Below the pieces are notes generated by a model. The model did not search any database. It was not told the DNA's origin and worked only from the letters and a program-made list of their open reading frames with translations. Source: Thermoleophilia bacterium (GTDB lineage: Bacteria > Actinomycetota > Thermoleophilia > Miltoncostaeales > Miltoncostaeaceae). Taken from it: 46,303 nucleotides of DNA. The first letter of the stretch is position 1; each line of letters starts with the position of its first letter. Below are positions 17,432 through 26,167 of this stretch, piece by piece. Where the stretch lies: assembly GCA_020848615.1 (NCBI GenBank), contig JADLHW010000098.1, positions 1 to 46,303 of the forward strand. The letters run 5' to 3'. A program made the position numbers and the translations under genes.

Positions 17432-17454
17432 GGTGCTGGTAGCAGTAGCACCAT
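17430..17454. promoter_or_regulatory. inverted-repeat operator between gntR and ftsW
   Basis: ATGGTGCT (17430-17437) and AGCACCAT (17447-17454) form a perfect 8-bp inverted repeat around 9 bases. It covers the gntR start codon and lies about 30 bases before the ftsW start, a position from which one regulator could control both. Confidence 0.65.
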
Positions 17455-17484
17455 CGTGACGTGGCCGTCAACGGCGAGGCCGAC

Positions 17485-18816
17485 GTGACATCGCCGAGAG
17501 GGACTGGCCGCCGCACGGCGAACCGGTGGAGGATGCCGTCGCGTTCCCGCACCCTCCGCCCGGTCCCTGCGCCCGAGGAGCGGCCGGCACCGCGGACGCG
17601 GACGCGCCACGGGCACGGCCCGGAGACCCTGCTCATCGCGGTGGTCACGGCGTTGGTGTGCTTCGGGACCGTGATGGTGTACTCGTCGTCGTCGTCCCGG
17701 GCGTTCCTGGAGGACGGCGACCCGCTGCGCTTCGTGAAGCGCCAGGTGATCTTCGCGATCGTCGGCGTGGGCGCCTACCTGCTGTGCACGCGCATCGACA
17801 TCCGCATCCTCACGCGCATCGCCGGGCCCTTCATGGGCGTCACCGTGGTGCTGCTGCTCGCCGTCCTGCTGCCCGGGGTGGGGCAGGAGATCAACGGATC
17901 CAAACGCTGGCTGCCCATGCCGGTCATCGGCCAGCTGCAGCCGTCGGAGCTCGCGAAGTTCGCGCTGGTGCTGTGGATCGCCGCCGCGGTCGCCCGCGAT
18001 CCGAAACGCCTCGGCACCCTCCGGGGCATGGTCCCGTACCTGGCGGTCACCGGTCTGCTGTCGGTCCTCATCCTCGCCGAGCCGGACCTCGGAACCGCGA
18101 GCACCCTGTTCCTGGTCGCGCTGGCCGTGCTGCTCGTCGGCGGCGCCCAGCACAAGCACGTGGGCGCGGTGTTCGGCGGGGCGATCGCCCTGTCGGCGCT
18201 GGCGATCGCCGCCGCGCCGTACCGGCGCGAGCGGCTCCTGGCGTTCCTCGACCCGATGAGCGACCCGGACGGCATCGGCTTCCAGACCCTGCAGGCCCAG
18301 ATCGCGCTGGGCTCCGGCGGGCTCACCGGCAAGGGCCTGGGCGACGGCGTCCAGAAGGCGTTCTACCTGCCGGAGGCCCACACCGACATGATCCTCGCGA
18401 CCATCGGGGAGGAGCTCGGGGTGGTCGGCGTGCTGCTGGTGCTCGCCGCGATCGGCCTCATCGCCATGCTGGCGTACCGGATCGCACTGGACTGCGCCGA
18501 CCTCCACCGGCGGCTGGTGGCCACCGGGATCGCCACGCTCATCGCGATCCAGGGCCTCGACAACATCGCCGCGGTGCTCGGCGCGTTCCCCATCACCGGG
18601 GTCCCGCTGCCCTTCGTCTCCTACGGGGGCAGTAGTCTCATCGTGCTCCTCGCGAGCATCGGCATCCTCGTCAACATCGCGCGAAGTGGGAACCGGCACG
18701 CAGCACGACAGCACTCAACGCAGGCCGGCGCGCGTGGTGATCGCGGCCGGGGGGACGGGCGGCCACGTGATGCCGGCGCTGGCGGTGGCCGAAGCGCTGC
18801 GCGAGCGGGGCGCTGA
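17485..18816 (+). CDS. ftsW: FtsW, SEDS-family septal peptidoglycan polymerase
   Basis: 443-aa SEDS protein with about ten transmembrane helices, polymerising lipid II with FtsI. Signatures: MVYSSSSSRAF in the first loop, FVKRQ, INGSKRWLPMP-x-x-x-LQPSELAKF, AEPDLGTA, the large loop with GGLTGKGLGDGVQKAFYLPEAHTDMI and GVPLPFVSYGGSSL. GTG 17485 is preferred because GCGAGG lies 5 bases upstream; ATG 17533 has its purine run with no spacer. The C-terminus runs about 130 bases into murG and ends in a low-complexity Arg/Gly/Ala tail, unusual for FtsW. An inverted-repeat operator precedes it. Confidence 0.94.
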   Translation: MTSPRGTGRRTANRWRMPSRSRTLRPVPAPEERPAPRTRTRHGHGPETLLIAVVTALVCFGTVMVYSSSSSRAFLEDGDPLRFVKRQVIFAIVGVGAYLLCTRIDIRILTRIAGPFMGVTVVLLLAVLLPGVGQEINGSKRWLPMPVIGQLQPSELAKFALVLWIAAAVARDPKRLGTLRGMVPYLAVTGLLSVLILAEPDLGTASTLFLVALAVLLVGGAQHKHVGAVFGGAIALSALAIAAAPYRRERLLAFLDPMSDPDGIGFQTLQAQIALGSGGLTGKGLGDGVQKAFYLPEAHTDMILATIGEELGVVGVLLVLAAIGLIAMLAYRIALDCADLHRRLVATGIATLIAIQGLDNIAAVLGAFPITGVPLPFVSYGGSSLIVLLASIGILVNIARSGNRHAARQHSTQAGARGDRGRGDGRPRDAGAGGGRSAARAGR

Positions 18817-19798
18817 GGTCAGCTTCGTCACCGCGAAGGGCCGCAGCGGCACCGGCATCGCCGCGGCGGAGGGCTTCCCGGAGCGCAGCATCCCCCTGCG
18901 GGGCTTCCGGCGGAGCCCCACGCCGCGCAACCTCGCCGTGCTGGGGATGGCGTTCCTCGCCGTGCCGCGGTCGCTCCTCGCCCTGCGGCGCGCCCGCGCG
19001 GACGTGATCGTCACCGGCGGCGGCTACATGGCCGGTCCCGTCGCGGTCGCAGGGTTCCTCACCCGCCGCCCCGTGGTGGCGATGGAGGCCGACTCCCGGC
19101 TGGGCCTCGCCAACCGCGTGATCGCCCCGTTCGCCAAGCGAGTCGTGCTCGCCTGGCCCCTGCGCAAGCGGGCGTCGGGCAAGTACCTGGTGGCCGGCCG
19201 CCCGGTGCGCCGGTCGGTGCTCACCGCCACGCGCACCAGCGGCCGGCGGGCGTTCGGGATCCCCCCGGACGCCACCGTGGTGGTGGTGGTGGGCGGCTCC
19301 CAGGGGGCCCGCACCCTGAACACCGCGGCGGCGGACGCCTTCGGTCCCGAACCGCCGTTCCACGTCATCCACGTGGCGGGCCCAACCCAGGTCGACGACG
19401 TGCGCGCCGCGCTGCCCGAGCGGAACGAGGCCCGGTACCGGCTGGAGGCGTACCTCGGCAACCTGCCCGAGGCCCTGGCCGCCGCCGACCTGGTGGTGTC
19501 GCGCTCGGGCGGCTCGGTGTTCGAGCTCGCCGCGATCGGCCGGGCGAGCATCCTGGTGCCGTACCCGTACGCGACCGCCGACCACCAGACCGCCAACGCC
19601 CGGTGGCTCGCGGACGCCGGCGCCGCGATCCTGCTGCCCGACGCCGACTGCACGGGTGAGCGCCTGCGGTCGCTGGTGGGCGCCCTGCTCGCCGACCGCC
19701 GCCGCCTGGAGGCCATGGCCGAGGCGGCACGGGCGATGGGCAAGCCGGACGCCGCGGACCGCATCGCCGAGGCCGTCCTGGAGGTCGCACGGCCCTGA
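18686..19798 (+). CDS. murG: MurG, lipid II-forming GlcNAc transferase
   Basis: 370-aa GT-B glycosyltransferase converting lipid I to lipid II on the cytoplasmic membrane face. Motifs: VVIAAGGTGGHVMPALAVAEAL (N-terminal G loop), TGGGYMAGPV, VVVVVGGSQGARTLN, and the UDP-GlcNAc-binding SRSGGSVFELAAIGRASILVPYPYA plus DHQTANARWL. GTG 18686 gives a 131-base overlap with ftsW; later GTGs at 18734 and 18737 would start just before the G loop. Its TGA overlaps the CTG start of murC. Confidence 0.94.
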   Translation: MGTGTQHDSTQRRPARVVIAAGGTGGHVMPALAVAEALRERGAEVSFVTAKGRSGTGIAAAEGFPERSIPLRGFRRSPTPRNLAVLGMAFLAVPRSLLALRRARADVIVTGGGYMAGPVAVAGFLTRRPVVAMEADSRLGLANRVIAPFAKRVVLAWPLRKRASGKYLVAGRPVRRSVLTATRTSGRRAFGIPPDATVVVVVGGSQGARTLNTAAADAFGPEPPFHVIHVAGPTQVDDVRAALPERNEARYRLEAYLGNLPEALAAADLVVSRSGGSVFELAAIGRASILVPYPYATADHQTANARWLADAGAAILLPDADCTGERLRSLVGALLADRRRLEAMAEAARAMGKPDAADRIAEAVLEVARP

Positions 19799-21180
19799 GC
19801 ACCCCCCGGTCCATCCACCTCGTCGGGATCGGCGGGGCGGGGATGAGCGCCCTCGCGCGCCTCGCCGTCGCCGCCGGGTACCGGGTGAGCGGCACCGACC
19901 GCGACGACTCCGCCACCCTCGCGGCGCTCCGTGCGCTGGGCGTGGACGCGATGGCCGGCCACCGGGCCGCCGCGATCCCCGCGGACTGCGCGACCCTGGT
20001 GGTGTCCACGGCCATCGCCGCGGGCAACCCGGAGCTCGCCGAGGCCGCGCGCCGGGGCATCCCGGTCGTCCACCGGGCCGATCTGCTCGCCGAGCTCATG
20101 TCCGGCCATCGCGGCCTCGCCGTCGCCGGCGCCCACGGCAAGTCCACCACCAGCGCGATGCTGCGGCTCGCCCTCGGCGGTGCCTCGGCGTGCATCGGGG
20201 CGACGGTGGAGGGCGGTGGCGGCACCGGCGCGGTGTGGGGCGAGGGCCCCTGGTTCGTGGCCGAGGCGGACGAGAGCGACCGGTCCCTGCTGCGCCTGCG
20301 CCCCGAGGGCGCGATCCTGCTGAACGTCGACCACGACCACCACTCCACCTACGCCTCGCTGGAGGAGGTGGAGGAGACGTTCGCCGCCTTCCTGGCGCAG
20401 GTGCCGGAACGCGGCGTGGTGGTGGCGGGCCCCGAGCCGCGCGCGCAGGCGCTCGCCCGGGCCTCGGGCCGGCCGGTGCGCATCGTCGGGGACGCCCCGG
20501 ACGCCTGGTGCACGGTGGGCCGCGCACCGGACGGCGCCGGCCTGCTGCGGCTCGCCGACGGCCGGGAGGTCGTGCTGCGGCTGGCGGTGCCCGGCGCCCA
20601 CAACGTCGCGAACGCCGCGTGCGCCGTGGCTCTGGCGGACTGGTGCGGGGTGGACCCGCATGCCGCGGCCGGCAATCTGGCCGCGTTCACCGGCGTCGGC
20701 CGCCGGTTCGAGCCGCGCGGCACCGCCGCCGGCGTCACGGTGATCGACGACTACGCCCACCACCCCGCGGAGGTGGCGGCCACGCTGGCGGCCGCCCGGG
20801 AGCGGTACCACGGGCGGGTCATCGCCGTCTTCCAGCCGCACCTGTACTCCCGCACCCGGGCCCTGTGGGCCGAGCTCGGCGACGCCCTGGGCGCGGCCGA
20901 CATCGCCCTGGTCACCGAGATCTACGCGGCCCGCGAGCCGCACGACCCGGGGATCAGCGGCCGCACCGTCGCCGATGCGGTGCCCCCGCCGGCGGTGGCC
21001 CGCTTCACCCCGGCCCTCGCCGACGCCCGGGACGCGGTGCTCGAGCTGGCCCGTCCCGGGGACCTCGTGCTCACCCTCGGTGCGGGCGACGTGACCACCC
21101 TCGGGCAGGAGTTGGTGGCCGCGCTGCAAAACCAATACGGCAATGGGGACTCTCCTGGCGGCGCCGAACCTCCCGCGTGA
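19795..21180 (+). CDS. murC: MurC, UDP-MurNAc--L-Ala ligase, CTG start
   Basis: 461-aa Mur ligase adding L-alanine to UDP-MurNAc. Read from CTG 19795, the N-terminus is STPRSIHLVGIGGAGMSALA, the MurC Rossmann loop. The first ATG in frame (19843) falls inside this loop and would delete HLVGIGGAG, and no ATG, GTG or TTG lies upstream in the open frame. The CTG overlaps the murG stop as CTGA, mirroring the GTGA overlaps elsewhere. Further motifs: AVAGAHGKSTTSAM (ATP loop), AEADESDRSLLRL, NVDHDHHSTY, DDYAHHPAEVAATL and FQPHLYSRTRAL. Overlaps murB by 38 bases. Confidence 0.93.
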   Translation: MSTPRSIHLVGIGGAGMSALARLAVAAGYRVSGTDRDDSATLAALRALGVDAMAGHRAAAIPADCATLVVSTAIAAGNPELAEAARRGIPVVHRADLLAELMSGHRGLAVAGAHGKSTTSAMLRLALGGASACIGATVEGGGGTGAVWGEGPWFVAEADESDRSLLRLRPEGAILLNVDHDHHSTYASLEEVEETFAAFLAQVPERGVVVAGPEPRAQALARASGRPVRIVGDAPDAWCTVGRAPDGAGLLRLADGREVVLRLAVPGAHNVANAACAVALADWCGVDPHAAAGNLAAFTGVGRRFEPRGTAAGVTVIDDYAHHPAEVAATLAAARERYHGRVIAVFQPHLYSRTRALWAELGDALGAADIALVTEIYAAREPHDPGISGRTVADAVPPPAVARFTPALADARDAVLELARPGDLVLTLGAGDVTTLGQELVAALQNQYGNGDSPGGAEPPA

Positions 21181-24662: not shown

Positions 24663-25757
24663 ATGGCCGACGTGCGCACGACCTCGCTCCACGACCGTCA
24701 CATCGCACTGGGCGCCCGCACGGGCGACTTCGCGGGCTGGGACATGCCGCTGCAGTACACGTCCCCCCGCGCGGAGCACATGGCGGTCCGCACCGCGTCC
24801 GGGATCTTCGACGTGTCCCACATGGGGCAGCTCGAGGTGACGGGCCCGGGAGCGCGCGAGTTCCTGTCGTGGGCGCTCACCAACGACATCCGCGAGATCG
24901 GCCCGGGGCAGGGGCAGTACACGCTCATGCTCACCGACGACGGCGGCGTCATCGACGACCTCATCGCCTACGCGCTCCTGGACCGCTTCCTGCTCGTGGT
25001 CAACGCGAGCAACGTGGCCGCCTGCCGTGAGCGGCTCATGGACGGCGCCGCGGGCCTGGACATCACGGTGACCGACCGGTCGGACGAGGTGGCCATGATC
25101 GCGCTCCAGGGCCCGGCGTGGTCGTCGGTGCTCGCCCCGCTGTGCGGCACCCCCGGACCCCTGAACCTGGAGTACTTCGAGGTGACCGAGGACACGGTCG
25201 CCGGGGTCCCGGCGCTCGTGGCGCGCACCGGGTACACGGGCGAGCCGGGCGTCGAGATCATGTGCCCGTGGGAGCACGGCCCCCGGGTGTGGGACGCCCT
25301 CGCCCGCGGCGGCGCCGAGCCCTGCGGCCTGGTGGCGCGCGACACGCTGCGCACGGAGATGGGTTATCCGCTGTACGGGCAGGAGCTCAGCCGCGACCGC
25401 ACCCCGGTGGAGGCCGCGCTGCTGTGGGCGTGTGACACTGAGGGCGGCCGGTTCGCCGGCGCGGAGACCGTGCGCCGCCAGATGGCGGACGGCGTGGCGG
25501 AGAAGCTGTGCGCGTTCGAGCTCACCGAGCCCGGCATCCCGCGGCCAGGCCTGCCCGTCCTGGCCGGCGGCGAGCGCGTGGGCACCGTCACCAGCGGCAC
25601 CCTGTCGCCGGTGCTGGACCGCGGCATCGGCATGGCGTACGTGCGCGCCGACCTCGCCCGGTCCGGGAACGACATCGTCATCGACGTGCGCGGCCGCCCG
25701 CGCGCGGCCCGGACCGCCAAACGCCCCCTGGTGGCCCGCTCACCACGGAACGACTGA
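24663..25757 (+). CDS. gcvT: GcvT, glycine cleavage T protein (aminomethyltransferase)
   Basis: 364-aa tetrahydrofolate-dependent aminomethyltransferase that releases ammonia from the aminomethyl-lipoyl H protein. Motifs: LHDRHIALGARTGDFAGWDMPLQY, SGIFDVSHMGQLEVTG, YTLMLTDDGGVIDDL, ARTGYTGEPGVEIM (folate-site region), GLVARDTLRTEMGYPLYGQEL and the C-terminal GTVTSGTLSPVL. Length is normal. ATG 24663. gcvH follows 11 bases later. The P protein gene gcvP is not in the window. Confidence 0.95.
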   Translation: MADVRTTSLHDRHIALGARTGDFAGWDMPLQYTSPRAEHMAVRTASGIFDVSHMGQLEVTGPGAREFLSWALTNDIREIGPGQGQYTLMLTDDGGVIDDLIAYALLDRFLLVVNASNVAACRERLMDGAAGLDITVTDRSDEVAMIALQGPAWSSVLAPLCGTPGPLNLEYFEVTEDTVAGVPALVARTGYTGEPGVEIMCPWEHGPRVWDALARGGAEPCGLVARDTLRTEMGYPLYGQELSRDRTPVEAALLWACDTEGGRFAGAETVRRQMADGVAEKLCAFELTEPGIPRPGLPVLAGGERVGTVTSGTLSPVLDRGIGMAYVRADLARSGNDIVIDVRGRPRAARTAKRPLVARSPRND

Positions 25758-25768
25758 AAGGACCCGCT

Positions 25769-26167
25769 GTGGCCGACGAGCACTACCCCGACGACCTGCG
25801 GTACCACCGCGAGCACGACTGGGTGCGCATGGACGGCGACGTCGCCGTGTTCGGCATCACCTGGTACGCCCAGGAAGCCCTCGGCGAGGTGGTGTTCTTC
25901 GCGCCGCCCGCGGTGGGCGACACGGTCGCCAAGGACGGCACCTACGGCGAGCTGGAGTCGGTGAAGGCCGTGTCCGACGTGTACGCACCGGCCAGCGGCG
26001 AGGTGGTCGCCGTGAACGACGCCGTGGTCGCCACCCCGGAGCTGGTGAACACCGACCCGTACGGCGAGGGATGGCTGCTGCGCGTGAAGCTGTCCGACCC
26101 GTCGGAGCTGGACGCCCTGATGAGCAGGCAGGAGTACTCCGACTACCTGTCGGGGCTCTCGGCCTAG
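25769..26167 (+). CDS. gcvH: GcvH, lipoyl carrier H protein
   Basis: 132-aa lipoyl-domain protein shuttling the aminomethyl group between the P, T and L proteins. The lipoylation loop GELESVKAVSDVYAPASGEV is present with lysine at residue 66. The N-terminus YHREHDWVRMDGDVAVFGIT and C-terminus YGEGWLLRVKLSDPSELDALM, then YSDYL, are canonical. GTG 25769 is preceded by GAAAGGA 6 bases upstream. It is co-transcribed with gcvT and the LPD-like gene that starts 7 bases after its stop. Confidence 0.96.
   Translation: MADEHYPDDLRYHREHDWVRMDGDVAVFGITWYAQEALGEVVFFAPPAVGDTVAKDGTYGELESVKAVSDVYAPASGEVVAVNDAVVATPELVNTDPYGEGWLLRVKLSDPSELDALMSRQEYSDYLSGLSA

Follow-up and report, generated by a model that had tools for sequence, protein, structure and literature searches.

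A CTG start codon is proposed for murC in a Thermoleophilia genome whose family appears to use CTG as a start

The infC gene of E. coli starts at AUU and is autoregulated by IF3. It offers a conserved, deliberately poor start in a translation-related gene, as we likewise propose here, but the genes and the codon described below are others, and they were identified by sequence comparison. Bacterial GTG and TTG starts provide a second point of comparison, as they share with CTG in this study a first-position mismatch with fMet-tRNA(CAU), a Shine-Dalgarno (SD) sequence upstream, and interchange with ATG or GTG in relatives. In addition, the four-nucleotide stop/start overlap of NTGA termination-reinitiation sites (ATGA or GTGA) is the same as the one conserved at the murG-murC junction of the family studied here; however, the overlap start in our case is CTG, while PMC10666635 speaks only of ATGA or GTGA. 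CUG has been reported to work at 0.86% of the efficiency of AUG in E. coli and to account for 0.024% of bacterial starts (PMC11497404), and switches to CUG were found for 2 of 61,358 ancestral AUG, 1 of 5,080 GUG and 1 of 2,468 UUG codons (PMC5622118). Given this weakness and rarity, a CTG start is surprising for an essential gene. In contrast to such reports on non-AUG starts, an essential ribosomal gene here has CTG at its start position throughout a family.

We focused on the murG/murC junction in a 46,303-nucleotide stretch of Thermoleophilia DNA (the window; Table 1). Preceded by the stop TGA 19657-19659, the murC frame extends without interruption from 19660 to 21180, and in its overlap with murG it is open for 45 codons upstream. 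When all in-frame codons between that TGA and ATG 19843 were read, no ATG, GTG or TTG was found; CTG 19795 is the sole NTG codon ahead of the GIGGAG loop, and the next one is ATG 19843 itself. An earlier note on this DNA had placed the MurC loop upstream of the first in-frame ATG, with no canonical start before it and with the CTG overlapping the murG TGA as CTGA, and our reading bears this out in every respect. The overlap measures four nucleotides. Besides three ATGA overlaps, the window holds at least seven in-frame GTGA overlaps, in line with the "at least six" of the earlier note. C is the last base before the stop in 232 of 511 sampled gene pairs of the genome; since a C before the murG stop is common by chance, the CTGA is in itself unremarkable, and what is remarkable is the absence of any other start.

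Table 1. Features discussed in the text. Plain positions refer to the window; the remaining ones are given by locus, with genome and contig in brackets.
Feature	Location	Strand	Remarks
murG	18686..19798	+	stop TGA 19796-19798; exact start uncertain; NCBIfam TIGR01133, E 1.3e-75
GGAGGT, Shine-Dalgarno-like	19780..19785	+	9 nt before CTG
CTG, proposed murC start codon	19795..19797	+	CTGA 19795-19798 overlaps murG stop
murC, UDP-N-acetylmuramate--L-alanine ligase	19795..21180	+	461 aa counted from CTG; TIGR01082, E 1.2e-117
GIGGAG nucleotide loop of MurC	19825..19842	+	5' of first ATG; solved MurC chains align from residue 5
First in-frame ATG of murC	19843..19845	+	start here would remove the loop
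In-frame GTGA overlaps in the window	13129, 15421, 22070, 33913, 35239	+	
In-frame GTGA overlaps in the window	38260, 1308	-	
rplJ (ribosomal protein L10)	L173:10924-11448 (G000:C7)	+	starts CTG AAC CGG behind AAGGAGGTGA
RNase E/G	L195:851-2305 (G000:C99)	+	starts CTG AAC ACC AAG behind AGGAGG
dinB (polymerase IV-like)	L191:6640-5603 (G000:C94)	-	CTG start in both species of the genus

The murC product passes the equivalog model TIGR01082 (393.8 bits against a cut-off of 335.1), with profile positions 2-448 of 449 falling on residues 7-440. We considered whether murC might instead begin at another near-cognate codon or at ATG 19843 and yield a shorter protein, as the frame contains ATC 19813 (with ATC 19828, the only other near-cognates ahead of the ATG) and as ATG 19843 is the choice of a gene finder limited to ATG, GTG and TTG. 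However, the ATG would cost the protein its GIGGAG loop: from there, the match to Pfam Mur_ligase begins at profile position 12 and falls from 91.5 to 72.1 bits, and the N-terminal GxGGxG loop is contained in the product only with a start at CTG 19795 or ATC 19813. The latter encodes an isoleucine that many family members have within the protein, whereas the family starts align with the CTG, and a shorter MurC is therefore quite improbable. Moreover, the GGAGGT upstream of the CTG forms a duplex of -10.5 kcal/mol with a typical 16S tail (the reference used for this energy), which beats three quarters of the sampled GTGA junctions of the genome.

The junction was then compared among relatives, nearly all of which are drafts or MAGs. 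G000, the draft genome that contains the window, measures 3.64 Mb, and the only other species of its genus (G001), whose MurC is 84% identical in amino acids, likewise reads CTGA at this base, in a diverged context and with no ATG, GTG or TTG nearby. Among the 30 genomes of the family, the junction reads GTGA in 20, ATGA in five, TTGA in one and CTGA in two, these being G000 and G001, while the remaining two have TGATG or no overlap. The alignment of the murG/murC junction suggested in the earlier note thus places CTGA in this genus only and GTG, ATG or TTG at the homologous site in nearly all the others, and CTG 19795 sits at what the sequence alignment identifies as the start position of the family murC. 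One might suspect that a GTG was misread or misassembled as CTG in a single draft contig from a genome in which GTGA is the usual form; nevertheless, the same CTGA in the independent G001 genome, despite the diverged context, and the recurrence of CTG starts in three other genes make such an error very unlikely indeed. Overall, the lack of alternatives, the homologous family starts, the same codon in G001 and the good SD sequence support the claim of the earlier note that murC needs a CTG start, and murC of G000 appears to start at CTG 19795. As a separate observation, the ftsW frame (17449-18816) overlaps the murG start by about 80 nt or more, while most neighbours overlap by 4 nt.

MurC could also be made without a start of its own, as a fusion to MurG through a -1 frameshift, since the two frames overlap and that of murC is open far upstream. 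MurG, however, is complete to its TGA (the TIGR01133 profile is reached to position 352 of 353), relatives have plain GTG or ATG starts at the junction, and nothing similar can serve rplJ or RNase E/G, so that we regard a frameshift as highly improbable. A start at CTG is accordingly retained. When 399 class genomes were searched by pattern for a CTGA immediately preceding the MurC loop, 21 matches were obtained, of which three are in frame with murC: those of G000 and G001, which have no ATG beside them, and one in G004 that reads CTGATG and hence has an ATG. Among 80 named loci, 41 had a readable murC loop, and a canonical start was present within 90 nt in all 41. The MurG sequence does not force a C before the stop, as this base is the fourfold-degenerate third position of its codon (CCC or ACC). 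Between G000 and G001, 61% of the fourfold-degenerate C positions of murG stayed C and 33% became G; with such retention, the presence of CTG in both species does not by itself speak for selection. The silent change from CTG to GTG was open to both species and was not taken. CTG seems only tolerated at murC, in contrast to rplJ and RNase E/G.

The earlier note had treated murC as a single oddity, a view that does not hold, as several putative CTG starts occur in the genus and the family (rplJ, RNase E/G and dinB). These conserved cases were found through CTGA junctions without a start and through genes lacking a canonical start near the beginning of their coding region. Over 625 kb of G000, we counted 27 CTGA junctions that match the phase of the following gene; most of them read CTGATG or have a GTG or ATG nearby, and were left out of the count of CTG starts, and few have no start nearby. 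One of the junctions with a likelier alternative lies in the window, at the gcvT-side stop (25754-25772), where CTGA is in phase with a gcvH-like gene in both species; a start at the GTG (ATG in G001) 15 nt beyond it is more probable. Two other genes are possible, weaker candidates: coaE (L196:1970-2554, G000:C100), which may start at CTG, with no SD sequence seen and with its model beginning at position 3, and a DUF309-like gene named by eye from its motif (L216:8392-8730, G001:C7), at a CTGA junction whose nearest upstream canonical start is 84 nt away.

The most consistent case is rplJ, which has CTG at its proposed start in all 30 family genomes, covering nine genera, and in 21 of 21 distinct sequences. 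The motif GGAGGTGA at -12 to -5 of this codon is conserved across the family, while the four bases adjoining the codon vary. In five family genomes the frame has only 2-7 open codons upstream of the CTG, with no other start, and in two g4 genomes and one g9 genome an ATG or GTG lies within 30 nt upstream. Outside the family, 20 genomes representing nine other families of the class were compared, and the aligned codon is ATG in 17 of them, GTG in two and CTC, a non-start codon, in one, the last having an ATG two codons before. An Rfam search did not find a leader element at rplJ, and when the rplJ start was sought across the phylum, the pattern used matched 4 of 396 genomes and was too narrow to say anything on other classes. 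A search limited to open-licence papers found no report of CTG for rplJ or for Thermoleophilia. The nearby secE was also considered as a gene without a start and was rejected, as an ATG is present farther upstream.

For RNase E/G, the putative start codon is CTG in 25 of the 30 family genomes (nine genera) and TTG in two, the remaining three being structurally different. Many members of the family lack a canonical in-frame start for both RNase E/G and rplJ. The class-wide RNase E/G pattern matched mainly this family; in another one (f5), CTG was found in G075 and ATG in two other genomes. As for dinB, the aligned start in the related genera g12, g3 and g11 is GTG or ATG.

The initiator tRNA was found to be ordinary, with every full-length copy read carrying the CAT anticodon and the GGG/CCC stem pairs (three G-C). 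A pattern search for an initiator tRNA with a CAG anticodon, or with a stem change fitting CUG, found none; a more diverged second initiator would escape such a pattern. With an ordinary initiator, CTG must be read with a first-position mismatch. Two observations concern the tRNA genes themselves: in G008 (L361) and G012 (L370), the initiator tRNA gene has its 3' half repeated at a distance of 1.5 to 7.3 kb from a further copy of this motif, as though tRNA-fMet had taken up an integrating element, and G025 has two copies about 5 kb apart.

These results also bear on why CTG has been kept. One explanation, which agrees with the one we favor that murC starts at CTG and departs from it on this point, is that CTG is not weak here: the initiation machinery would accept it roughly as readily as GTG, and starts of this kind would be neutral. 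Their occurrence in essential, presumably highly expressed genes fits such a scenario. Under neutrality, however, C should drift to G, A or T, and no drift is seen in the 21 distinct rplJ sequences; the RNase E/G site shows only C or T; and the initiator tRNA is ordinary. We therefore consider neutrality doubtful. The invariant C at rplJ, and the restriction of the RNase E/G site to C or T, with neither A nor G, suggest instead that CTG at these two genes is kept by selection as a weak start.

Taken together, we find it very probable, from the comparisons made here, that murC starts at CTG 19795 by SD-aided reinitiation, in a family that uses CTG as a start. The ribosome that finishes murG at the overlapping TGA would be kept near by the GGAGGT and would restart on the CTG with the ordinary fMet-tRNA (CAU), tolerating the mismatch as it does with GTG and TTG. 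Termination-reinitiation is the likely route, judging from the four-nucleotide overlap kept in nearly all of the family, and the SD sequence would also allow fresh initiation. On this account, CTG would be a real, low-frequency fourth NTG start in this Thermoleophilia family, fixed at rplJ and nearly so at RNase E/G, and would have arisen at murC and dinB within this genus. At rplJ and RNase E/G, the weak start would be kept, most simply, to set the dose of the product, with a strong SD sequence offsetting its weakness. Each L10 requires several copies of L7/L12, and a weak rplJ start could help to hold L10 below L7/L12. A broader proposal, which we advance tentatively and hold at somewhat less than even confidence, is that CTG serves the family as a regulatory start under selection, which would make the synthesis of L10 and RNase E/G weak and sensitive to the balance of initiation factors (e.g., IF3), with a ribosome that accepts CTG well enough for further essential genes, murC among them, to slip onto it.

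Under usual settings, gene finders limit starts to ATG, GTG and TTG. Such programs would truncate or drop genes that start with CTG, and the truncated MurC, L10 and RNase E/G would resemble defective proteins. Furthermore, a family with CTG fixed in an essential ribosomal gene makes it testable why CTG, alone among the NTG codons, is almost excluded as a start in bacteria, and also lets one ask whether the weakness of a start can be deliberately maintained to set the dose of a protein.
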